From NCBI RefSeq assembly GCF_949628265.1, contig NC_088788.1, positions 5,518,001-5,582,000 on the forward strand: a stretch of DNA of 64,000 nucleotides. Reading direction: 5' to 3'. Below the pieces are notes generated by a model, which saw only the letters and a list, made by a program, of their open reading frames with translations, did not search any database and had not been told where the DNA came from. This DNA is from Cloeon dipterum (Eukaryota > Arthropoda > Insecta > Ephemeroptera > Baetidae). Of this stretch, positions 32,231-61,797 are shown piece by piece; the first letter of the stretch is position 1, and every line of letters begins with the position of its first letter. Position numbers and translations under genes: made by a program.

Positions 32231-33215
32231 TCAGAGCAACCGCACAGATCCGATAAGTTGCTGCGTTACTCGTTTTTTCTCACTGAAGAAATGTAAGCTG
32301 TAAGCTTGCATCAAAATTGCCATGTTAGTCGCACACGATCCAGCAGTCTGCAAAAGAAATCTATCATTGATTTTGCCATAAAAATTCAGTGAAATATTTA
32401 CAGCAAAGAGGAGCGCGTAATTGATTGTGAAAAGTCCACAAGCCGTTAATTGTACGTTTCTTAGTGAAATTTCAGACGCGTACCTCAGTAGCTGCGGATC
32501 CAAAGAGATTATTTGAATCTTTTTTCCAAAATTTGACTTCGTGCTCTTATACCTCCTTTCTAGTGGATAATTCTGGAAGGGTATTAGCAATCTTACTTAG
32601 CAGCGGCCCCGTTAACTTAGCCTATATATAAATGCATTTAGCAAAATTATTATTTAATTTTAATTTATAAATTTAATTAAACTATACCTTATTTTCCACT
32701 CTAGCACAAAATGCGCAAATTCCAGTAATTGTAATTATATCCACCAGATTCCAAAGCGATAATCTGACGAGTCCTTGACTTCCAAATAATCCACAAAATA
32801 TATCGTGGTTGTCGTTCAAATAATAAAAGCAGTCGAACAAATCTTTGAGGTTATCATAAAAATCAATTAGTCCATACAGCGCATGCTCTAATAGCAGTGC
32901 AAGATAAACCGGACCATAAATATTATGAATAATTTCGTGTATTTCCATGATTGCTAAATGTTTATCGCACAGGGTGAGTAAATTTTCATTATCATCGTTA
33001 TCACGCTTCTCGAGTGATTTGTTCAAATTAAAAAAGCAGTTGTCTAATAAATATAAAACTAAAACGCATTGGACGAACATTGAATTTACATAAATATCCG
33101 AAAAAGCGCATAGAGTCGTCTTACTCCAAAACCCATCAAATATAAAATAAATATTCAGACCGAATACAAAGTTGTATAAATGATTTAAATTATCATTAAT
33201 GTGCGTGTTTAGATT
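32231..33215 (-). pseudogene. Gustatory receptor-like gene 1, 5'-truncated
   Basis: Minus-strand exons: from about 33215 to 32688 (5' end missing), 32621-32553, 32491-32402 and 32347-32231. They read in one frame, with GT-AG introns at exactly the positions used by the upstream paralogue. Sequence includes SDIYVNSMFVQCVLVLYLL, IMEIHEIIHNIYGPVYLALL, the conserved ACGLFTINYALLFA and a C-terminal TAGSCATNMAILMQAY, as in 7tm_7 insect chemoreceptors (multi-pass membrane proteins). Compared with the 354-aa paralogue it lacks roughly the first 110-120 residues. At that point the frame runs into the poly-A end of a retroposon-like repeat (33220-33510). No remaining space before the neighbour's stop (33590) could hold the missing exon. 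It is probably a pseudogene, although the surviving frame is intact. Confidence 0.75.
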
Positions 33216-33219
33216 TTTA

Positions 33220-33510
33220 TTTATTTTTTTTTTGCTCTTTTTATCCCTGTCCGAGGACCGGGAAGGGCGCGCACTGCAACTGCACTAGCCCGAATGCTGA
33301 ATTCCGAGTGCCAATATTACCGCGAACGGATAACATGGGCGCACCAGGCCGCACAGGGACCCAGCCCACTCAAGGGCCACTTGCCTCCGCACCGAGGACT
33401 GCATTGAAACGCTAGACATTTGTCCCGTGATGCCAAATCAAGCATGCTGGAAAGGTGCAAAGCAGCAAGTAGCGAGTCGCCTCCCAGCCCGTTGAGCAAT
33501 TTGAGCATTT
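33220..33510 (-). mobile_element. Retroposon-like repeat, copy a (poly-A ended)
   Basis: On the minus strand it ends in ACAGGGATAAAAAGAGC followed by a poly-A run. About 160 bp of it match copy b at 45960-46123 closely, including the block at about 33343-33391 (minus strand ggcaagtggccc through caggccgc). Only the 3' end is shared, as for 5'-truncated LINE or SINE copies. The sequence upstream of 33391 is unique in this window, so the true 5' border is uncertain. Confidence 0.55.
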
Positions 33511-33589
33511 CGAATCACTAAACTAACAACTTTTTGCCATCTCTGACATTGGGTTTTTATTCCAGAAGAACTGACAATAATAAAACTTC

Positions 33590-36500
33590 TCATTGGTTGT
33601 TCGGCCTCGATGAAGAAATATGTGCTTGCAGCAAAATTGCCATGTTGGTTGCACACGAACCAGCTGTCTGTAAATAAATAATATAATTTTAAGCACAACA
33701 ACTTTTTCATTAAAATACTTGCCGCAAAGAGGAGTTCATAATTAATTGTAAAAAGCCCGCAAGCAGTTAATTTCGCATTCCTCAAAGAAATTTCTGACGC
33801 ATACCACAAAAGCTGTGAATAAAAAATGCTTCAAAATATTATTTTGTCAAAATTTGATTTCGATTAGAGCACTGTGCGGTGTCAATTTTCATTACCATGG
33901 TAACCGCATTTTTTTTTTAAATCAAAAACCACAACCGCACCACAACCGCATCGGTCTTGATTGGTAATTCAGTAGGAATTTAGGATGATTTTAAATGTTT
34001 TGAAGCCAAGTCGATGCAAATGGAAGCAGATTAATTTTTTTATTAAAATTGAAGCAATGGGGTTGAAAGGGGATGAGGGTAAGCTTCCCATAAACACTTG
34101 GGCTGTTAGTGGAGGTCAAGGCGAGTCTAACGGTAGTAAATTTTTGCAATTCTGATTGTTGGAACCTGAGATTTGGAGGTTCAAAGAACCCAAAAAGTGG
34201 AAAAATGTAATTTATATTAAGTTATGAAATAACTATCAAGATATCCTAAAAATTACGCCATTCTGAAAAATTTGGCCCGGTTTTTAATTGCGGGCACACA
34301 TTTAAGTGGCTCTTGATCCGATCAACTTGTCCACTAAAAGAAGCCCAAATATTCTATTTATGATGCATCAATAACGTTGTAGTAGTTGATTGGCTTGATA
34401 TTAGATTTAACACTTAATTTATTCAAAGAAAGGAGATTTTTTTAAATTTATGGTATATCATAAAAAGTGCCGTGCAAATTCCCAGAAATTACAACAACGT
34501 TATACATATACCCGTCTCGCGGGACGCCCTACCCGTCCCGCGTGACTGCGAGACGCCCTACCCGTCCCGCGGGACGCCCTACCCGTCCCGCGTGACTGCG
34601 GGACGCCCTACCCGTCCCGCGTGACTGCGAGACGCCCTACCCGTCCCGCGGGACGCCCTACCCGTCCCGCGTGACTGCGGGACGCCATAACCGTCCCGCG
34701 GGACGCCCTACCCGTCCCGCGTGACTGCGGGACGCCATACCCGTCCCGCGTGACTGCGGGACGCCATACCCGTCCCGCGTGACTGCGGGACGCCATACCC
34801 GTCCCGCGTGACTGCAGGACGCCATACCCGTCTCGCGCGAACGCCCTACCCGTCCCGCGTGATGGCCTACCCGTCCCGCGGGACGCCCTACCCGTCCCGC
34901 GTGACTGCGAGACGCCCTACCCGTCCCGCGGGACGCCCTACCCGTCCCGCGTGACTGCGAGACGCCCTACCCGTCCCGCGGGACGCCCTACCCGTCCCGC
35001 GTGACTGCGGGACGCCATAACCGTCCCGCGGGACGCCCTACCCGTCCCGCGTGACTGCGGGACGCCATACCCGTCCCGCGTGACTGCGGGACGCCATACC
35101 CGTCCCGCGTGACTGCAGGACGCCATACCCGTCCCGCGTGACTGCGGGACGCCATACCCGTCCCGCGTGACTGCAGGACGCCATACCCGTCTCGCGCGAC
35201 GCCCTACCCGTCCCGCGTGATGGCCTACCCGTCCCGCGGGACGCCCTACCCGTCCCGCGTGACTGCGAGACGCCCTACCCGTCCCGCGTGACTGCAGGAC
35301 GCCATACCCGTCTCGCGCGACGCCCTACCCGTCCCGCGTGATGGCCTACCCGTCCCGCGGGACGCCATACCCGTCCCGCGTGACTGCGGGACGCCATACC
35401 CGTCCCGCGTGACTGCAGGACGCCATACCCGTCTCGCGCGACGCCCTACCCGTCCCGCGTGATGGCCTACCCGTCCCGCGGGACGCCCTACCCGTCCTGC
35501 GTGACTGCGAGACGCCCTACCCGTCCCGCGGGACGCCCTACCCGTCCCGCGTGACTGCGAGACGCCCTACCCGTCCCGCGGGACGCCCTACCCGTCCCGC
35601 GTGACTGCGGGACGCCATAACCGTCCCGCGGGACGCCCTACCCGTCCCGCGTGACTGCGGGACGCCATACCCGTCCCGCGTGACTGCGGGACGCCATACC
35701 CGTCCCGCGTGACTGCGGGACGCCATACCCGTCCCGCGTGACTGCAGGACGCCATACCCGTCCCGCGTGACTGCGGGACGCCATAACCGTCCCGCGGGAC
35801 GCCCTACCCGTCCCGCGGGACGCCCTACCCGTCCCGCGTGACTGCAGGACGCCATACCCGTCTCGCGCGACGCCCTACCCGTCCCGCGTGATGGCCTACC
35901 CGTCCCGCGGGACGCCCTACCCGTCCCGCGTGACTGCGAGACGCCCTACCCGTCCCGCGGGAAGCCCTACCCGTCCCGCGGGACGCCCTACCCGTCCCGC
36001 GGGACGCCCTACCCGTCCCGCGTGACTGCGGGACGCCCTACCCGTCCCGCGTGACTGCGGGACGCCCTACCCGTCCCGCGTGACTGCGGGACGCCCTACC
36101 CGTCCCGCGTGACTGCGAGACGCCCTACCCGTCCCGCGTGACTGCGGGACGCCCTACCCGTCCCGCGGGACGCCCTACCCGTCCCGCGTGACTGCGGGAC
36201 GCCATACCCGTCCCGCGGGACGCCCTACCCGTCCCGCGTGACTGCGGGACGCCATACCCGTCCCGCGGGACGCCCTACCCGTCCCGCGTGACTGCGGGAC
36301 GCCCTACCCGTCCCGCGGGACGCCCTACCCGTCCCGCGTGACTGCGGGACGCCATACCCGTCCCGCGGGACGCCCTACCCGTCCCGCGTGACTGCGAGAC
36401 GCCCTACCCGTCCCGCGGGACGCCCTACCCGTCCCGCGTGACTGCGAGACGCCCTACCCGTCCCGCGGGACGCCCTACCCGTCCCGCGTGTCTGCGGGAC

Positions 36501-39500
36501 GCCCTACCCGTCCCGCGTGTCTGCGGGACGCCCTACCCGTCCCGCGTGACTGCGAGACGCTCTACCCGTCCCGCGGGACGCCCTACCCGTCCCGCGTGAC
36601 TGCGAGACGCTCTACCCGTCCCGCGGGACGCCCTACCCGTCCCGCGGGACGCCCTACCCGTCCCGCGTGACTGCGGGACGCCCTACCCGTCCCGCGTGAC
36701 TGCGGGACGCCCTACCCGTCCCGCGTGACTGCGTGACGCCCTACCCGTCCCGCGGGACGCCCTACCCGTCCCGCGTGACTGCGAGACGCCCTACCCGTCC
36801 CGCGGGACGCCCTACCCGTCCCGCGTGACTGCGGGACGCCCTACCCGTCCCGCGGGACGCCCTACCCGTCCCGCGTGTCTGCGGGACGCCCTACCCGTCC
36901 CGCGGGACGCCCTACCCGTCCCGCGTGACTGCGGGACGCCATAACCGTGCCGCGGGACGTCCTACCCGTCCCGCGTGATGGCCTACCCGTCCCGCGGGAC
37001 GCCCTACTCGTCCCGCGTGACTGCGGGACGCCCTACCCGTACCGCGTGACTGCAGGATGCCATAACCGTCCCGCGTGATGACCTACCCGTCCCGCGGGAC
37101 GCCCTACCCGTCCCGCGTGACTGCGAGACGCCCTACCCGTCCCGCGGGACGCCCTACCCGTCCCGCCTGTCTGCGGGACGCCCTACCCGTCCCGCGTGAT
37201 GGCCTACCCGTCCCGCGGGACGCCCTACCCGTCCCGCGTGACTGCGAGACGCCATACCCGTCCCGCGGGACGCCCTACCCGTCCCGCGTGACTGCGAGAC
37301 GCCATACCCGTCCCGCGGGACGCCCTACCCGTCCCGCGTGACTGCGTGACGCCCTACCCGTCCCGCGGGACGCCCTCCCCGTCCCGCGTGACTGCGAGAC
37401 GCCCTACCCGTCCCGCGGGACGCCCTACCCGTCCCGCGTGACTGCGGGACGCCCTACCCGTCCCGCGTGACTGCGGGACGCCCTACCCGTCCCGCGTGAC
37501 TGCGAGACGCCCTACCCGTCCCGCGGGACGCCCTACCCGTCCCGCGTGACTGCGTGACGCCCTACCCGTCCCGCGGGACGCCCTACCCGTCCCGCGTGAC
37601 TGCGAGACGCCCTACCCGTCCCGCGGGACGCCCTACCCGTCCCGCGTGACTGCGGGACGCCCTACCCGTCCCGCGTGACTGCGGGACGCCCTACCCGTCC
37701 CGCGTGCCTGCGGGACGCCCTACCCGTCCCGCGGGACGCCCTACCCGTCCCGCGTGACTGCGGGACGCCCTACCCGTACCGCGTGACTGCAGGATGCCAT
37801 AACCGTCCCGCGTGATGACCTACCCGTCCCGCGGGACGCCCTACCCGTCCCGCGTGACTGCGAGACGCCCTACCCGTCCCGCGGGACGCCCTACCCGTCC
37901 CGCGTGTCTGCGGGACGCCCTACCCGTCCCGCGTGATGGCCTACCCGTCCCGCGGGACGCCCTACCCGTCCCGCGTGACTGCGAGACGCCATACCCGTCC
38001 CGCGGGACGCCCTACCCGCCCCGCGTGACTGCGAGACGCCATACCCGTCCCGCGGGACGCCCTACCCGTCCCGCGTGACTGCGTGACGCCCTACCCGTCC
38101 CGCGGGACGCCCTACCCGTCCCGCGTGACTGCAGGACGCCATACCCGTCCCGCGTGACTGCGGGACGCCATAACCGTCCCGCGGGACGCCCTACCCGTCC
38201 CGCGGGACGCCCTACCCGTCCCGCGTGACTGCAGGACGCCATACCCGTCTCGCGCGACGCCCTACCCGTCCCGCGTGATGGCCTACCCGTCCCGCGGGAC
38301 GCCCTACCCGTCCCGCGTGACTGCGAGACGCCCTACCCGTCCCGCGGGAAGCCCTACCCGTCCCGCGGGACGCCCTACCCGTCCCGCGGGACGCCCTACC
38401 CGTCCCGCGTGACTGCGGGACGCCCTACCCGTCCCGCGTGACTGCGGGACGCCCTACCCGTCCCGCGTGACTGCGGGACGCCCTACCCGTCCCGCGTGAC
38501 TGCGAGACGCCCTACCCGTCCCGCGTGACTGCGGGACGCCCTACCCGTCCCGCGGGACGCCCTACCCGTCCCGCGTGACTGCGGGGCGCCATACCCGGCC
38601 CGCGGGACGCCCTACCCGTCCCGCGTGACTGCGGGACGCCATACCCGTCCCGCGGGACGCCCTACCCGTCCCGCGTGACTGCGGGACGCCCTACCCGTCC
38701 CGCGGGACGCCCTACCCGTCCCGCGGGACTGCGGGACGCCATACCCGTCCCGCGGGACGCCCTACCCGTCCCGCGTGACTGCGAGACGCCCTACCCGTCC
38801 CGCGGGACGCCCTACCCGTCCCGCGTGACTGCGAGACGCCCTACCCGTCCCGCGGGACGCCCTACCCGTCCCGCGGGACGCCCTACCCGTCCCGCGTGTC
38901 TGCGGGACGCCCTACCCGTCCCGCGTGACTGCGAGACGCTCTACCCGTCCCGCGGGACGCCCTACCCGTCCCGCGTGACTGCGAGACGCTCTACCCGTCC
39001 CGCGGGACGCCCTACCCGTCCCGCGGGACGCCCTACCCGTCCCGCGTGACTGCGAGACGCCCTACCCGTCCCGCGTGACTGCGGGACGCCCTACCCGTCC
39101 CGCGTGACTGCGTGACGCCCTACCCGTCCCGCGGGACGCCCTACCCGTCCCGCGTGACTGCGAGACGCCCTACCCGTCCCGCGGGACGCCCTACCCGTCC
39201 CGCGTGACTGCGGGACGCCCTACCCGTCCCGCGGGACGCCCTACCCGTCCCGCGTGTCTGCGGGACGCCCTACCCGTCCCGCGGGACGCCCTACCCGTCC
39301 CGCGTGACTGCGGGACGCCATAACCGTGCCGCGGGACGTCCTACCCGTCCCGCGTGATGGCCTACCCGTCCCGCGGGACGCCCTACTCGTCCCGCGTGAC
39401 TGCGGGACGCCCTACCCGTACCGCGTGACTGCAGGATGCCATAACCGTCCCGCGTGATGACCTACCCGTCCCGCGGGACGCCCTACCCGTCCCGCGTGAC

Positions 39501-42410
39501 TGCGAGACGCCCTACCCGTCCCGCGGGACGCCCTACCCGTCCCGCGTGTCTGCGGGACGCCCTACCCGTCCCGCGTGATGGCCTACCCGTCCCGCGGGAC
39601 GCCCTACCCGTCCCGCGTGACTGCGAGACGCCATACCCGTCCCGCGGGACGCCCTACCCGTCCCGCGTGACTGCGGGACGCCATACCCGTCCCGCGGGAC
39701 GCCCTACCCGTCCCGCGTGACTGCGTGACGCCCTACCCGTCCCGCGGGACGCCCTACCCGTCCCGCGTGACTGCGAGACGCCCTACCCGTCCCGCGGGAC
39801 GCCCTACCCGTCCCGCGTGACTGCGGGACGCCCTACCCGTCCCGCGTGACTGCGGGACGCCCTACCCGTCCCGCGTGACTGCGAGACGCCCTACCCGTCC
39901 CGCGGGACGCCCTACCCGTCCCGCGTGACTGCGTGACGCCCTACCCGTCCCGCGGGACGCCCTACCCGTCCCGCGTGACTGCGAGACGCCCTACCCGTCC
40001 CGCGGGACGCCCTACCCGTCCCGCGTGACTGCGGGACGCCCTACCCGTCCCGCGTGACTGCGGGACGCCCTACCCGTCCCGCGTGTCTGCGGGACGCCCT
40101 ACCCGTCCCGCGGGACGCCCTACCCGTCCCGCGTGACTGCGGGACGCCCTACCCGTACCGCGTGACTGCAGGATGCCATAACCGTCCCGCGTGATGACCT
40201 ACCCGTCCCGCGGGACGCCCTACCCGTCCCGCGTGACTGCGAGACGCCCTACCCGTCCCGCGGGACGCCCTACCCGTCCCGCGTGTCTGCGGGACGCCCT
40301 ACCCGTCCCGCGTGATGGCCTACCCGTCCCGCGGGACGCCCTACCCGTCCCGCGTGACTGCGAGACGCCATACCCGTCCCGCGGGACGCCCTACCCGTCC
40401 CGCGTGACTGCGAGACGCCATACCCGTCCCGCGGGACGCCCTACCCGTCCCGCGTGACTGCGTGACGCCCTACCCGTCCCGCGGGACGCCCTACCCGTCC
40501 CGCGTGACTGCGAGACGCCCTACCCGTCCCGCGGGACGCCCTACCCGTCCCGCGTGACTGCGGGACGCCCTACCCGTCCCGCGTGACTGCGGGACGCCCT
40601 ACCCGTCCCGCGTGTCTGCGGGACGCCCTACCCGTCCCGCGGGACGCCCTACCCGTCCCGCGTGACTGCGGGACGCCATAACCGTGCCGCGGGACGTCCT
40701 ACCCGTCCCGCGTGATGGCCTACCCGTCCCGCGGGACGCCCTACTCGTCCCGCGTGACTGCGGGACGCCCTACCCGTACCGCGTGACTGCAGGATGCCAT
40801 AACCGTCCCGCGTGATGACCTACCCGTCCCGCGGGACGCCCTACCCGTCCCGCGGGACGCCCTACCCGTCCCGCGTGACTGCGAGACGCCCTACCCGTCC
40901 CGCGGGACGCCCTACCCGTCCCGCGTGTCTGCGGGACGCCCTACCCGTCCCGCGTGTCTGCGGGACGCCCTACCCGTCCCGCGTGATGGCCTACCCGTCC
41001 CGCGGGACGCCCTACCCGTCCCGCGTGACTGCGAGACGCCATACCCGTCCCGCGGGACGCCCTACCCGTCCCGCGTGACTGCGAGACGCCATACCCGTCC
41101 CGCGGGACGCCCTACCCGTCCCGCGTGACTGCGAGACGCCCTACCCGTCCCGCGGGATGGCCTACCCGTCCCGCGGGACGCCCTACTCATCCCGCGTGAC
41201 TGCGGGACGCCATACCCGTCCCGCGGGACGCCCTACCCGTCCCGCGCGACGCCCTACCCGTGCTAAACAGTCGCATAATAAAAATGGTAAATTTTGATTC
41301 TCAAGATTTGCGGTTTTTGGTGGTTCCACCGCAACCGCAAAAATGAAACCGCAACCGCACCGCAACCGCAAAATTATAACCGCATCTGCGGTTGTGGTGG
41401 GCGGTTTGCGGTTTTTTAGTACCAAAACCGCAACCGCACAGTGCTCTAATTTCGATTTACCTCCTGTCTAGTGGGCGAATCTGGAAGGGAATTAGCAATT
41501 TTGCTTAGAATTGGTCCAGTTTTCTTAGCCTGGCAGATTCAAATTTTCAAGCAACTCAATTTTTTCGCCAATAAAATTATACCTCAATTTCCACTCCAGC
41601 GCAAAAGGCACAAGTCCCAGAAATGATAATGGCATCAAGTACGTTCCAAAAGGTATGTGTGAGCAATGATTTGTTTTCACGGTCATTTAAAAAGTAAAAG
41701 CGGTCCAAATGGTATCTCAAATTATAATAAAAATCCAATATTCCGTAAAGTGCGTGCTCTACTAGCAAAACTAAATATACGGGTCCATAAATGCTTTGAA
41801 TTATTTCGTGTATTTCCATAATTTCTCCATGCTTGCAACACAAGGAGAGCAAATTTTCGTTACGTTTTTCCAAGGATTTGTTCAAAGCATAAATACAATT
41901 TTTAATTAAAATTAAAACAAACACACATTGAATGAAGATGGAATTAAGGTACACATCCGAAAACGCGCTCGGAACAGATTTACAGAAATCATCAAATGTG
42001 TATCCTGTGTTCAAAAAAATTACAAATATGACATGGAAATTAGCATAAATGAAGTGTTTGTAATTCAGCAGATAATTCTCGAAATTCAACTTGTGAATTC
42101 GTTCCAGAATGTTCATCAATGCTCTTTGTTTTGTCAAAACAAAATTGGTTGAAATCAAAAGGAGGAAGCAATAAGAGAGATGTGCACACGATCTAATCAC
42201 TTCTTCTCCACTTACAGCTTCCGTGAATTCTGAATAGGCCCGATCCAGATAAAAATAAGAGCAAATAAAGTAAAATGTGACGACACTGATTTTAAATTTT
42301 GCGGAGCACTCGGAAAACTGGTTGGTTTTCTCGTCAAAGTTTATAAATGCGGTACCAGTAAATTTAAAGAGTTTGAGGAACAGCAAAATGATTTTACGAG
42401 AGTGCAGCAT
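33590..42410 (-). CDS. Gustatory receptor-like gene 2, interrupted in an intron by a 7.6-kb element
   Basis: Four exons on the minus strand: 42410-41583, 41529-41461, 33812-33723 and 33667-33590. Total 1065 nt (354 aa), all phases consistent. The protein is hydrophobic with several predicted membrane spans (SVVTFYFICSYFYL, LSYCFLLLISTNFVL, SIFIQCVFVLILI, YGPVYLVLLVEHALYG, VLDAIIISGTCAFCAG). It carries the receptor-family C-terminal ACGLFTINYELLFA and SCATNMAILLQA. Family: insect 7tm_7 chemoreceptors, ligand-gated channels in sensory neuron membranes; ligand unknown. Intron 2 starts GTAA and is invaded by the transposon at 33865-41448; without it the intron would be about 56 bp. Intron 3 starts GC (GCG|GCAAGT), where the paralogue has GT. 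The gene could still work if the 7.65-kb intron is spliced. An odorant-receptor identity is less likely given the C-terminal motif. Confidence 0.78.
33857..33864. repeat. Target-site duplication, left copy (atttcgat)
   Basis: ATTTCGAT directly precedes the left terminal inverted repeat and is repeated exactly at 41449-41456 after the right one. Eight bases of the form nTnnnnAn fit hAT-type insertion. Confidence 0.85.
33865..41448. mobile_element. hAT-like non-autonomous DNA transposon carrying a giant minisatellite (7584 bp)
   Basis: The ends are perfect 16-bp inverted repeats: TAGAGCACTGTGCGGT at 33865-33880 and its exact reverse complement at 41433-41448, flanked by an 8-bp direct repeat. 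Subterminal regions are rich in short AACCGC/GCGGTT motifs on both sides (for example 33899-33955 and 41312-41435), as expected for transposase binding clusters of hAT elements. The left unique part (33881-34510) is AT-rich without a transposase frame. The bulk (34511-41261) is a GC-rich tandem array. No coding capacity is recognised, so mobilisation would need a transposase from elsewhere. The 8-bp duplication also fits P or Merlin elements, but terminal and target patterns favour hAT. Confidence 0.85.
34511..41261. repeat. GC-rich palindromic minisatellite array (about 6.75 kb)
   Basis: Built from two interleaved unit types, about 21 bp and about 29 bp. Both share cccgtcccgcg and end gacgccMta. 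The short unit contains the perfect 14-bp palindrome CGTCCCGCGGGACG; the long unit has a TGACTGCGNG insertion. Higher-order structure is visible. Landmarks recur at 737 bp (37075/37812 and 39454/40191), and the whole block recurs at about 2.38 kb (37075/39454, 37812/40191, 35861/38248). Long open frames through it (PSRGTPYPSR-like or GRVWRPAVTRDG-like) simply reflect the lack of stop codons in the unit and should not be annotated as genes. Confidence 0.93.
41449..41456. repeat. Target-site duplication, right copy (atttcgat)
   Basis: Exact repeat of 33857-33864, immediately after the right terminal inverted repeat. It lies in the receptor intron 4-12 bp from the 5' splice site at 41461/41460. 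Confidence 0.85.
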
Positions 42411-56325: not shown

Positions 56326-57558
56326 TTATTGCTTCTTATAATTGTAAAATCCTTCACCAGACTTAATTCCTAATTTTCCTTGAGCGACCTTCTCATTGAC
56401 CAACGGGACTGGCTTAAAAAGAGGTTCATCTGGGAACTTCTTTGCCCAGCCTAAAATAATCAGTAAAAATGAAATTATTTCAAATTTTTAAATTCGTAAC
56501 AACCTACCATCTAGAACAAATTTATTAGTGTCGAGCCCAACATAATCCAGAAGTTCGAAAGGTCCCATCGGATAACCTGCGCCCAGTTTCATGGCAATAT
56601 CCACGTCCCTGGTGGTAGCGTCCCCTCGCTCGACCAGTCGGGCGGCCTCGGCCAAATAGGGAACCAAAAGGCGGTTGACCACGAATCCGGGAGTGTCCCG
56701 GCAGGTGATGGCCACCTTTCCCAGGGCCTTGCCCCACTCCATCATCGCTTGGTAGGTCTCGTCCGAGGTGTACGGTGTCCTGATCACCTCCAGAAGCTTC
56801 ATCACAGGCACAGGGTTGAAAAAATGGAGACCACCGAATTTTTCCTGATAAAATATTTCATTGAAAATTAAACATTCGCAGATAAATTCGGTCTTTTCTG
56901 AAACCGAGCAGAATAAAATGCATGCTTTTATAATTAAAAAAAAATTGTTGAGCTGATCTTTATTGGAAAGTTTTGATACTTTTCTGAAAATGGGAATTTT
57001 TCTGTATTGAAAGAAAATTAAATATTTGCAATTATAAAATTCGTATTAAAAATCAAGCTAAAATTTTTAAAAAAATACCTTTCTGCTTGGGGCTGCCTGG
57101 GAAATATCCTCAACCGAAAGGGAAGAAGTATTAGAAGCAAAAATCGTGTGGGCAGGGGCGACAGGGTCGAGGCTGCTGAAGAGCTTGTGCTTGACCTTCA
57201 GGTCTTCGACGATGGCCTCGAGCACCAGGTCGGCCGATTTAGCCGCCTCGCACGCGTCCGTGTTGGTGCTCAGGTTGGCCAGGGCGCCGGCCACGAACTT
57301 CTCACCCTCGGCAGGTGCGTCCTTGAACTTCTTCTTGGCCACACGGCCCAGGTTGGCGGTGATGCTGTTCTTAGCCTTGGACAGAACCGTCTCGTCCAGG
57401 TCAACCAGGATCACTTTGTGTCCGGTCTGCGCGGCCACCTGAGCGATGCCGGAGCCCATCAGGCCGCCGCCGATGACCGTGACATTTTTTATGACGGCGG
57501 AAGACGCCAAGGAAGTGGAGAAACTTCTCCTGGCCAAGGTGTTCGCGAGAGGCAGCAT
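56326..57558 (-). CDS. HADH: 3-hydroxyacyl-CoA dehydrogenase, mitochondrial (tandem copy 1)
   Basis: Three exons on the minus strand: 57558-57079 (480 nt), 56844-56508 (337 nt) and 56450-56326 (125 nt). They give 313 aa, matching the about 314 aa of animal HADH. The N-terminus [20 protein letters not shown] is a mitochondrial presequence (basic, hydroxylated). NAD-binding motif [10 protein letters not shown] (residues 28-37). The catalytic dyad is His167 in [10 protein letters not shown] and Glu179 in LLEVI, with the usual spacing of 12. SNTSSL and the C-terminal GEGFYNYKK are conserved. Reaction: L-3-hydroxyacyl-CoA + NAD+ to 3-ketoacyl-CoA, the third step of medium/short-chain beta-oxidation. 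It lies 280 bp downstream of a paralogue with identical exon structure. Confidence 0.95.
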
Positions 57559-57837: not shown

Positions 57838-59591
57838 TTACTTCTTGTAGTTGTAAAAACCTTCGCCAGTCTTAACTCCAAACTTGCCCTGAGCGACCTT
57901 CTCGTTCAGCATCTTGATCGGCTTGAAAAGCGGCTGGTCAGGGAATTTCTTTGCCCAACCTGGAATATTTTTATTTTTGTTAATGAATTCCTCTCACTCT
58001 CAAAGCAAATTAAAAATGAAAGTCCAATAAGGTTGATCTATAAGGGAACTTTTAAGATAAAGATTAGAAAAGAGATTATAAATTTAAAACGTCCTTACTG
58101 AGATTTAAAATAGCAAAATGAAATTTTAAAATACTGGAACTCATTCCAGGATAAAATTGAAATTTCTAAATCATTTTAATATTTAAAAAATTGTGCAAAG
58201 AGAGTTAAAGCCAAATTTTTCTATTCAAGTTCATTTTAAAAATTAACCAAAAACCAATAATTATTTTTAACTATTTACTAACCATCGAGAATGAACTTGG
58301 TAGTGTCAAGTCCGACATAGTCCGCAAGTTCAAAGGGTCCCATCGGATAACCGGCGCCCAGTTTCATGGCAATGTCCACGTCCCTGGCGGAGGCGTCTCC
58401 TCGCTCGACCAGCCGCACGGCCTCGGCCAAATAGGGAACCAAAAGGCGGTTGACCACGAATCCGGGAGTGTCCCGGCAGGTGATGGGCACCTTTCCCAGG
58501 GCCTTGCCCCATTCCATCATCGCCTTGTAGGTCTCGTCCGAGGTGAATGGCGTCCTGATCACCTCCAGAAGCTTCATCACAGGCACGGGGTTGAAGAAGT
58601 GGAGGCCACCGAAATTTTCCTGAGAAAAATATACAAAATTTTGGTTAAAACTGTAATTTTTAGGGATTTTGTTGGATTTTTAAATTGAAGGTAGGAAAAC
58701 GCAGATTTAATGAAAATATTGGATATTTTATGATCTTATTTTCAATTAGATGATAATTTTCAGCCTATTAGGTTCATTTTAAACACTGGAATATTTTTTT
58801 AGAAAAAAATTAGGTCGAAAACGATGAATATTTTTAGAACTTTTTGGATTTTTCTACCAAATAGGAGGAAAATTTATCTCTCTGTCAACAAAAAATTCAT
58901 TTTAAATTCATCCTTTAATTTAAACAAATTTTTATCTTGAAAATTAAATTGAAAACAATTTTAGAAACAAATAATTTCATAATTTTCATTACAAAAAATT
59001 GTGGAAATTTTAGAGGGCTTTTTAGAATGACTGTTTCCAATCAATTCCGTCTGAAAACCATTAGAACATGTTTTCCATTTATGTCCAAAAATAGAAAACG
59101 ATTTTTTAAACCTTTCTCTTGGGGGCAGCCTTAGAAATCTCCTCGATGGACAGGGACGAGGTGTTGGAAGCGAAAATGGCATGAGCGGGGGCGACGGCGT
59201 CCAGGCTGCTGAACAGCTTGTGCTTGACCTTGAGGTCCTCGACGATGGCCTCGAGCACCAGGTCAGCAGACTTGGCCGCCTCGCACGCGTCCGTGTTGGT
59301 GCTCAGGTTGGCCAGGGCGCCGGCCACGAACTTCTCGCCGTCGGCGGGCGCGTCCTTGAACTTCTTCTTGGCCACGCGGCCCAGGTTGGCGGCGATGCTG
59401 TCCTTGGCTTTGCCCAGCACCTTCTCGTTCACGTCCACCAGGGTCACCTTCTGGCCGGCCTGCGCCGCCACCTGGGCCACTCCGGAGCCCATCAGGCCGC
59501 CGCCGATCACCGTCACGTTCTTGATGGCCGCCGAGGCGGCCGCCGACGACGAAAAGCCGCGAACGCAGACCTTCAGCAAGGACGTGGCCAT
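57838..59591 (-). CDS. HADH: 3-hydroxyacyl-CoA dehydrogenase, mitochondrial (tandem copy 2)
   Basis: Exons 59591-59112 (480 nt), 58619-58283 (337 nt) and 57959-57838 (122 nt) give 312 aa. The presequence is [19 protein letters not shown]; an in-frame upstream Met at 59657 would add 22 residues, but the presequence is better from 59591. Same NAD motif ([10 protein letters not shown]) and catalytic His167/Glu179 as copy 1, and the same splice positions and phases. Parts of exons 1 and 2 are identical at the DNA level to copy 1 for 60-70 bp at a time, while introns are unrelated. Both copies look functional, so they may differ in tissue or stage of expression. Confidence 0.95.
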
Positions 59592-61797
59592 GGTTTCGAG
59601 TCGCGAGGATGAGAATGAAAAAAGGCAAAGGCCAAAGTTCTCGACGGCTCGACGCACCGGATGTAAACAAGACGTTCACGGCTGATCGGAGGCACTAAGT
59701 AAGGAGGCACGCCCCATTTTTTAAACGACCACTCCCCCACCTTGCGCCAGGAGTGCGGCGTTTGTATGAACAGCTGCTGTCGCTTGACGCTTCATCGCTT
59801 GAGACTCTGCCTGGATACTGCACTGCCTTTATTAGGTTGTGTGTTGTGTTAAGTGGGTTGTAGATAATTTCTTCGGAGGCTTTGTCACGGAATTCGCTTG
59901 CTGGAAAATAATATGTTGCAAGATTGTCCAGGTTTGTGTTATTCCACATTTTAACCTGTTTTCTATGTCAATTAATTAGAGGAAGTTAATTTAATCCATG
60001 CACATTTAGATACCATGTTTCTTGGCAACGGTAAAATTGCACTCAATAGCATTAGCATAACAAACTCAATTTTATCCTTGTTGCATAAAGGCACTGCAAT
60101 GATTTCGTTGATTAGATTAACCAATTTGGGTAAAACGTGAATTAATTTGTCCGTTTTCCCACACCAGGGTGTTGTTGTTGACGATTTTATTCCTTTTATG
60201 AGAGATAATTATTGTGCTAAATGATACTCGATACCTTATATGGCATTGCATCGATCCAGTTGTTTTTCCAGAGACAATTTTTTTTATCCAATGAAATCTG
60301 GATGGCCAACAGATAATATCGTGCTTCCGAGAAGCCATGAAATTGGATGGACACATTCAACCATCTATTCGATCTATAATTCTAATTCCTTTTGATTGGT
60401 AGTTTCTCGTGATTGGAGCGTGGCATAATAGTTGCTGTTCATATTTATGTATAGACACACAAAAAAACAGATTTTTCATCAATTAAAAATTAAATTCGCA
60501 AATTATCAGCGAGAGAATCGATTAAAAAAATATCTGAATAAGTAGCTTTTCCGTGTGTAGTCCTGGTATTATAATTTCATATCGTTGGAATACATCTTCT
60601 AGATTTTACTTTATTCTCTCGTTAGGCGGGGAGCGAATATTATGCGACATGATCGATCGCGTTCCAAGATGAAGAAGGTCAGTAGGTGGAGTGTTAGCAA
60701 CTACTAGCAATAAAATTTGCTAAAATCGCTTTACACAGTAACACTGCTAAAAATAGCAAAAATTGGAGCGAGAATGATACAAACTAGATTTTTGCCTGGG
60801 CATGGTACGTTTAAACTTAGGGTAATTTGGTACTTCAGAAACAATTGTATAGGACCCCCGAGGACCCCCAATTTTGAATTTCATACATACATGTTGAAGA
60901 GCGTTAGATGAGTTTTTTGTTGCCAAAATTGCAAACCAAAATGTGGTGTATTTCCGGAGATATTAACTTTTTGTTACATTCATTCAAAGAATTCAGTTCA
61001 AGATTTTCGAAAGAAGTTATTTTTCGATTTCAAGAAAATCGGTGCGATGTTCGGAGAGGAAGTCCTGAAATTGATGCGCTCGATACCAAATCTCCGAATT
61101 TGGTAGTTTTTTCGTCTGTTATTATTCCCTTTGAAATATTTATTTTAATCATTTTAAGTACCGAAGGGTTTGGAGACATTTCTATAAACGCATTTTTATC
61201 AATATAAATGGTGGCGTACAAAAAAAAATTAATTAAAATTTGTGCTGGCCACTGGATCGCACACAGAAACCAAAAGCGGAAGTGACTTTTGGCCTTCACC
61301 TTAGTTCGGTTGGGCTTGGCGAGAGGAATCCAAGAAACACACCTTAATTTAAAAGCGCCACGGATAGATGAAATACTGAGTTTTTCCAAAATTCTTTCGT
61401 GAAAACCGTAGAAAATGAACGTTTTTATTTTCAAAAATATTTATGACACAAACCATGTGTTTTTTGCCCGTGATATTTCGTCTGGATATTTTTTCTGTAC
61501 ATATTCCCAGGTTTAGAACTATTTATTATTATATTCTCTCTTCTTTGCATAAAAAAATCCAGTTTTCCAGCCTTTGGTCCTCTTTTCTTGCTCATTGTTA
61601 GCTCAAACACAAACCATTATTCAAACAATCGTTTTTCCAGCTGACAAGAAGACTAATTACTAAAGGCTGTACCAAAACGATTTGTAACGACTAGCAGTTA
61701 AGACTTGCTGGAAACCGCGCTACTAGATTCTTCAGATTCAAGTAAATATACAAACTCTTTCGATTCTCACTTCAACCTTGAGCATTGCTTTTGCAGG
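59592..61797. other. Intergenic: HADH copy 2 promoter side and PARG upstream region
   Basis: Short frames on both strands (for example 59695-59949 and 61030-61434 on minus) have no recognisable motif or supporting splice structure. A ttttgcag acceptor directly before the PARG start suggests a non-coding PARG exon somewhere in here. Confidence 0.4.

Follow-up and report, generated by a model that had tools for sequence, protein, structure and literature searches.

How new satellite arrays reach many chromosomes is a standing question. Among the published accounts that place satellites inside DNA transposons are those of Tetris (PMC4079207), miDNA4, Xstir and Cg_HINE (PMC7492417). miDNA4 is a Tc1/mariner MITE of Xenopus tropicalis (Scalvenzi and Pollet 2014), treated here as it is summarised in PMC9659126 and PMC12628747. 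For Hermes, the account in PMC10368747 gives a target preference for nTnnnnAn and an 8-bp target-site duplication (TSD).

We identified in the genome of Cloeon dipterum a transposon family in which successive stages of satellite spread are legible side by side: array-less relatives, apparently one capture, TSD-marked dispersal, and arrays within intact ends that range from less than 1 kb to about 42 kb. Later stages, in which copies have lost their ends or array regions have none, are found in the same genome. We consider it quite probable that a non-autonomous hAT-superfamily transposon carries the satellite array, and that capture, mobilisation in trans, local growth and loss of ends took place as proposed in the steps below.

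The window copy and its insertion site

The window, the whole stretch of DNA analysed, comprises 64,000 bp (C3:5518001-5582000) of the 190-Mb genome in 10 contigs; below, C numbers denote contigs and L numbers loci. It contains an element of 7,584 bp (33865-41448) between perfect 16-bp inverted ends, TAGAGCACTGTGCGGT, at 33865-33880 on the plus strand and 41433-41448 on the minus strand. An exact 8-bp duplication, ATTTCGAT, which fits nTnnnnAn, flanks both ends (33857-33864 and 41449-41456). The preliminary description had proposed these termini and this duplication, and both are confirmed. The tandem array, delimited by Tandem Repeats Finder (TRF) and by its junctions, occupies 6,753 bp of the plus strand (34509-41261), which by junctions is 89% of the copy and agrees with the earlier figure of nearly 90%. 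Its palindromic, GC-rich units of 21 bp (TACCCGTCCCGCGGGACGCCC) are mixed with units of 29 bp (TACCCGTCCCGCGTGACTGCGGGACGCCC), and TRF reports a period of 50 (21+29). The GC content of 1-kb windows is 0.74-0.76 within the array and mostly 0.3-0.5 outside it.

The left non-array part (33881-34508, plus strand) contains AACCGC motifs and lacks about 330 bp that are present in most other fetched array-bearing copies. The right part (41262-41432, plus strand) is dense in AACCGC/GCGGTT and carries the GGTGGT marker of GC-type copies. AACCGC/GCGGTT occurs 3 times within the element's first 200 bp and 11 times within its last 200 bp, so that the subterminal clusters described earlier are indeed found on both sides. 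The window as a whole has 30 occurrences, fewer than the 41 expected from shuffles, and nearly half of them are these 14. With up to three mismatches, a 15-mer of the end occurs at two places in the window, both exact and both the ends of the element. Two or more such loose matches also occurred in 8 of 100 window shuffles, and the genome-wide count of the exact 16-mer, given below, is the decisive control.

The 600-bp flanks of the window copy, once joined, align at 67% identity with 32304-33109 of the window; the alignment runs across the insertion point and lacks the 7.6-kb insert. This paralogous empty site lies in a neighbouring chemoreceptor-like segment, 0.75 kb from the copy. Since the alignment crosses the insertion point, the 7.6 kb represent added sequence; because of a 5-bp gap in the alignment at the junction, the exact pre-insertion bases are unreadable from the paralog. 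On one side of the insertion is a chemoreceptor-like coding block on the minus strand (33438-33809; 7tm_7, E 1.7e-4, below the curated cut-off), and on the other an open frame on the same strand (41577-42410) with no Pfam match of its own. A further 7tm_7 match, at 32682-33080 (E 0.16), is also below the cut-off. A candidate splice donor is about 10 bp away from the copy, which, given the coding-like blocks on either side, is probably in an intron; in a chemoreceptor splice model drawn around the insertion, the exon phases, judged by eye, do not add up. The chemoreceptor-like segments adjoin on the minus strand (32304-33109 and 33438-42410), and a small intron of one of them was probably enlarged by 7.6 kb. 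Elsewhere in the window are two similar adjacent open frames of the 3-hydroxyacyl-CoA dehydrogenase type, one at 57067-57558 (PF02737, E 5.7e-37) and one at 59106-59657 that was likened to it by eye.

Copies across the genome and the transposase-bearing copy

The exact 16-bp end occurs at 59 places in the genome (28 on the plus and 31 on the minus strand), and the reversed control at none on either strand. With one mismatch there are 35 plus-strand and 41 minus-strand places, versus 1 and 2 for the reversed control. Further genomic copies of the terminus, on which the earlier proposal depended, therefore exist. Three of the 59 places (C5:24600187, C5:29033298 and C5:32064192) lie outside the fetched set. 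The exact ends form 18 facing pairs of 0.75-7.6 kb; together with seven pairs in which one end has one or two mismatches, and a single pair of 43,450 bp, they make up 26 complete copies, ranging from 755 bp to 43,450 bp. A search with 300-bp flanks among the fetched loci gave an empty site for none of the 18 exact pairs. Copies were compared by matched segments longer than 60 bp and TRF rows of score above 200.

Exact 8-bp TSDs flank 15 of the 26 complete copies; of these 15, 10 have T as the second base and 14 have A as the seventh. Among the other 11, matches in a shifted register are seen in L011 (9 bp), L017 and L027 (7 bp each), one mismatch in L025 and L041, two mismatches in L042 and L044, and no match in L010, L013, L014 and L046. 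The array is present in 16 complete copies: 14 of the 18 exact pairs (L010-L012 and L015-L025), L032 and the 43,450-bp copy. The preliminary description had asked for copies with the same ends and the same array inside but different 8-bp duplications, and 12 of the 16 array-bearing copies have exact TSDs. By the top TRF rows, the arrays in the 18 exact pairs lie within the inverted repeats and not outside them, as had also been proposed. Ten complete copies have no array. One of these, L026, bears transposase sequence; of the nine that have neither, seven measure 1,243-1,379 bp, one 1,795 bp and one 4,956 bp (with an insert). An additional array-less copy (C2:1099475-1101003) is outside the 26 counted.

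These results bear on the simplest alternative, that there is no transposon at all and that the window holds an array with chance inverted repeats or an assembly artefact. The exact array length does rest on the assembly. Chance inverted repeats around the array are ruled out by the 59 exact ends with a control of zero, by the exact TSDs of 15 of 26 copies and by the empty site, and the same evidence leaves the alternative as a whole scarcely credible.

Two pairs of array-less copies show unusual arrangements. L013 and L014 (C3:640723-653785) are about 10 kb apart; both have the flank ACTTGCAC, inverted in one relative to the other, and neither has an ordinary TSD, an arrangement that resembles an inversion or other rearrangement between copies. 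L042 and L044 (C4:33.16 and 33.46 Mb) are near-alike, with end branches of 1.1-1.2%, and lie 0.3 Mb apart; their imperfect TSD is identical, and they apparently result from a segmental duplication.

The transposase-bearing copy L026 (C5:29276554-29280787) is 4,234 bp long and has the same 16-bp ends and an exact TSD, GTGGAAAC. Its match to the window copy is 94% across 180 bp at one end and 91% across 96 bp at the opposite end, and its ends match those of other array copies at 75-96%. We detected the hAT dimerisation domain PF05699 in L026 (E 2.4e-13). When six pieces of L026 were searched against Pfam at E 0.001, the C-terminal piece alone matched, and seven other pieces, searched at E up to 1, gave DBD_Tnp_Hermes (E 0.11) as their best hAT-type match. 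Three pieces match Hermes weakly but in collinear order (PDB chains 6dww_A and 8edg_A, by sequence; best E 0.055, 0.15 and 0.01). These faint matches are what bears on the RNase-H-like catalytic domain, with its DDE residues, expected of a hAT transposase. At least 13 PF05699 matches occur in the genome, two of them in loci with an end of the present family: L026 and C4:33357505-33359060. The latter is truncated and is the one other locus found to be related to the interior of L026, which leaves L026 as the only full-length representative found of the transposase type. The 18 substitutions between the two fall on codon positions 6, 5 and 7 times, which shows no bias.

The preliminary description had asked whether an autonomous hAT with matching termini exists. 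L026 answers to this in its ends, its exact TSD and its PF05699 domain, but its open frames are split among reading frames. We suggest that the L026 type is the likely helper supplying transposase in trans. A hAT transposase, most likely of this type, would have recognised the terminal inverted repeats (TIRs) and AACCGC motifs and placed copies at new 8-bp sites; the insertions themselves are read from TSDs and shared ends, and trans-mobilisation and motif recognition are what we infer.

Membership in the hAT superfamily is indicated by 8-bp TSDs with the T2/A7 pattern, by a transposase domain in a copy with the family ends, and by short TIRs common to transposase-bearing and non-autonomous copies, the 16-bp ends being shared by the 18 exact facing pairs, among them the transposase-domain copy. 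Other classifications were rejected. Derivation of the array-less copies from the transposase copy by internal deletion is not supported, as L009, L013 and L026 match each other over only about 150-210 bp per end. Classical MITEs stay under about 600-800 bp, and the copies of this family measure 755-43,450 bp, the array-less ones mostly 1,243-1,379 bp. Nor is this a Foldback element, as its only array sits outside the 16-bp TIRs, with dissimilar left and right parts on either side.

Proposed capture and growth of the array, and its monomer

In most array-bearing copies the array is bounded, with few changes, on the left by sequence ending in ACGTTATACATA and on the right by sequence beginning with GCTAAACAGTCGCATAA. 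With up to three mismatches, the left junction occurs genome-wide at 15 places and the right at 17, together representing 19 loci, and controls gave none. All 19 loci have element ends or flanks. Canonical junctions are missing from L020, L034, L037, L061 and from the left edges of the 43,450-bp copy and of L025. At the position of the array, array-less copies have a different sequence (about 216 bp in L009), and no array seed was seen at the homologous place when their printed sequence was inspected by eye.

A tree of left flanks places 17 array-bearing rows and 12 array-less rows on opposite sides of a branch with support 100/100. The tree excludes flanks of 480 bp or less (L037 and L061), L010, L025, L026, L030 and L034, which have no left flank, and the right part of the 43,450-bp copy. 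Midpoint rooting places the array-bearing group within the array-less copies, adjacent forks being weakly supported. Arrays are of two types, a GC-type with the core GTCCCGCGGGAC and an AT-type with the core GTTACGCGTAAC. The labels GC-type, AT-type and array-less require 3 changes on the tree, versus 13.8 in shuffles. Array type also agrees with a right-flank marker, in 8 of 8 GC-type rows and in all 9 readable rows among the 10 of AT-type. The marker test covers these 18 array-bearing rows (excluding L031, L033, L037, L060 and L061), and its Fisher p of 4e-5 is indicative only, since the copies are related and the rows not independent. In addition, an odd right-edge unit containing CTAAAACCATCACGCGCGACGCCC is common to L015, L018, L022 and L033, and is found with two changes in L024; the five loci include both array types.

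Given the shared junctions, the shared edge units and the agreement with the marker, at least the edges of the array travelled with the element. We propose that the array was gained once: an array-less member, about 1.25-1.4 kb long, would have lost some 216 bp of its interior and acquired an array of 21-bp units in their place. The single gain is supported by the common junctions and the one tree group, and the order of events is read from the midpoint rooting. Copies made afterwards carried at least the edge units of the array, as seen at the loci that share them. Alternatively, arrays may have entered repeatedly and independently, for example through recombination with, or gene conversion by, a satellite that already existed. 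Junction-less regions of the same monomer exist and array loci can exchange; moreover, L015 and L033 (GC-type) cluster with L032 (AT-type) in the flank tree (89/95), which could reflect one switch of type by conversion. The common junctions (15 left and 17 right), the single group at 100/100, the shared edge units and the marker linkage argue against repeated entry, which we regard as improbable. Apparently there was one capture of the array, followed by spread through transposition.

Counting only units of the form CCGT-N8-ACGCC, we identified 1,216 cores of 21-bp units, of which 503 are TACGCGTA and 191 are CCCGCGGG, both self-complementary; only 14 are mixed CC/TA cores, some of them in edge units. 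The commonest core is an imperfect palindrome in at least five arrays: TATGCGTA in L020 and L037, CTCGCGGG in L024 and the 43,450-bp copy, and CCCGCGAG in L033. Compared with shuffles, the 29-bp GC unit and a 28-bp AT unit (core GTTACGCG-AGA-CGCGTAAC) fold into hairpins much more strongly (z -4.7 and -5.3), which the 21-bp units do not (z -1.0 and -0.7). Template switching at quasi-palindromes is a type of mutation already described in PMC7202029 and PMC3820800. The two self-complementary states, GC-type and AT-type, are probably kept palindromic by hairpin-templated correction. Copying from arm to arm is suggested by loop-bearing forms in both types together with the mixed intermediates, and it is presented as a conjecture because units within one array are not independent. 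Alternatively, the palindrome may be under selection as a binding site for a protein (transposase or host factor) rather than reflecting mutation bias. The existence of two unlike self-complementary states at such abundance, with so few mixed cores between them, would favour selection; the arrays with an imperfect commonest core, the non-independence of units within an array and the dissimilarity of the motif to the subterminal AACCGC speak against it, and we think selection unlikely. Hairpin-templated mutation has a natural test in these two palindromic states of the monomer.

Arrays differ greatly in length, from 820 to 6,753 bp in the 13 loci where both junctions can be read. The largest copy (C1:7497544-7540993; 43,450 bp) has the TSD CTTTAGAG on either side, and its flanks match at 97% on the left (948 of 964 bases) and 100% on the right. 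Of its array of about 42 kb, the first 6.0 kb and the last 7.3 kb were read; among the matches listed, a 501-bp piece of the window array covers at least 25,553 of the 28,999 unread bases, and gaps of up to 571 bp between these matches make some interruptions possible. Unit composition also varies by locus. The dominant core makes up 60 of 60 and 80 of 86 units at the two sampled ends of the largest copy (140 of 146), 78 of 105 units in L033, 98 of 105 units in the window copy (where it is CCCGCGGG) and 85 of 88 units in L020. Among the arrays compared, the longest exact match between different loci is 306 bp, and end branches in the left-flank tree are only about 0.4-2% long.

The preliminary description held that a hAT element had moved a multi-kilobase satellite. 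Array-bearing copies at many TSD-marked sites support movement of the array-bearing element; much of the length, by contrast, was probably added after insertion, given that lengths and variants are specific to each locus. Transport at full length, in which the 43-kb and 7.6-kb copies transposed as such, would account for the exact TSDs and intact ends of both. hAT-type composite elements of tens of kilobases can move. Against such transport stand the locus-specific dominant variants of the largest copy, L033 and the window copy, and the limit of 306 bp on shared array sequence between loci whose flanks have diverged so little; we judge it to be a minority possibility. These observations favour seeding by short to medium arrays with local growth, and arrays probably grew or shrank after landing. 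They would have expanded, contracted and been homogenised at each locus by unequal exchange or replication slippage, as the locus-specific lengths and variants suggest. Resequencing of other individuals would make this seed-then-grow model directly testable.

Two arrays have unusual internal structure. In L025 (C5:23779509-23785058), whose ends are intact and whose TSD has one mismatch, runs of 21-bp units of the AT-type array alternate with ten near-identical AT-rich spacers of 136-138 bp, and we regard this higher-order array as an emerging higher-order satellite. In L021 (C4:22472069-22477776), the array is broken near its left edge by about 380 bp of unrelated sequence (at about 1364-1743).

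Arrays outside intact elements and comparison with known systems

AT-type 35-mers occur genome-wide 1,058 times on the plus and 191 times on the minus strand, with none for the control. Array and flank matches were scored among the best 38-40 candidates. Against a 1.4-kb AT-type array, at least 59 matches fall in C4:5534329-5574710 and at least 31 in C2:31489001-31538376, the latter in two blocks, each of about 10.5 kb, separated by 28 kb that contain no listed match. Among the matches listed, a gap of 232-235 bp recurs between neighbours (in 44 of 58 cases on C4 and in 19 of 30 on C2), so that both regions resemble a single higher-order repeat sharing a spacer of about 233 bp. Listed matches also include further AT-type array at C1:36049569-36052402 and three matches at only 67-68% identity at C1:36.076-36.122 Mb. 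No canonical element junction, at up to three mismatches, was found in the array regions on C2 and C4 or in those at C1:36.05 and C1:36.076-36.122 Mb. L063 (C1:1192700-1194000) contains a few 21-bp units, one spacer 90% like that of L025 and about two more units, with no ends; it is a possible relic of a donor or of an escaped array.

Some array copies have lost their ends. In L060 (C2:9.04 Mb) the left end and array are present and the right end is missing; in L061 (C1:36.05 Mb) the array abuts a left-flank fragment, and at C4:24.18 Mb a left flank adjoins array. We propose, as a last step, that such losses turned some arrays into free-standing satellite. Truncated copies beside arrays point to this step, and for the regions of 40-49 kb it is an extrapolation: the 40- and 49-kb regions perhaps descend from the transposon. 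Regions of the same monomer without canonical junctions also imply that the satellite is not confined to the transposon, and part of it may be older than, or independent of, the element, considering the C2 and C4 regions without junctions and L063 without ends. The proposal that a hAT element seeds satellite arrays around the genome is thus upheld for the arrays in TSD-bearing copies, but for the junction-less regions that direction is only plausible.

A more ambitious reading, which we offer tentatively and think rather doubtful, is that this hAT family acts as the satellite distributor of the genome. Short palindromic arrays would be planted, grow to tens of kilobases (as in the 43-kb copy, with ends and TSD intact) and lose their ends to become the 40- and 49-kb regions, and the monomer would flip between its self-complementary states through hairpin-templated copying of arms.

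We found no hAT element with an internal satellite array like that of Cloeon in the titles and abstract openings of open-access literature, a scope outside which most subscription journals fall. According to the account of Hermes in PMC10368747, that element shares the nTnnnnAn target, the 8-bp TSD and subterminal repeats with the present family, and its protein has weak, collinear similarity to L026; Hermes is an autonomous model element for which this account mentions no satellite cargo, whereas the Cloeon element carries an array. The gadMor-hAT-1784/8043 elements of Atlantic cod, as outlined in PMC12368964, are likewise hAT-derived, non-autonomous and furnished with tandem repeats, but their 167-169-bp units lie within TIRs of about 600 bp and are tied to inversion breakpoints, and the outline mentions no internal capture at a single site.

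Beyond hAT elements, the Tetris transposon of Drosophila virilis is described in PMC4079207 as having tandem repeats that seeded longer satellite-like arrays. Tetris is a Foldback element with repeats of about 220 bp inside long TIRs, in contrast to the single, internal array of Cloeon outside 16-bp TIRs. The Cg_HINE Helentrons of the Pacific oyster similarly carry central satellite-like arrays to dispersed sites; in the account of PMC7492417 their units are mostly 140-180 bp and the longest array has 29 monomers, compared with Cloeon arrays of about 6.75 kb (window copy) and some 42 kb (largest copy). miDNA4, in the summaries cited above, is also non-autonomous with an internal satellite, and has been interpreted through a model of capture, growth and end loss leading to free satellite. 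Its defining trait, tandem repeats at one internal position in dispersed copies, is seen in Cloeon in the 15 left and 17 right junctions at 19 loci. The two differ in that miDNA4 belongs to Tc1/mariner and the Cloeon element to hAT, with an 8-bp TSD, GC-rich palindromes of 21 and 29 bp, and one copy of 43 kb. What sets the present family apart from the known satellite-carrying transposons is its hAT host, its scale and its palindromic monomer.
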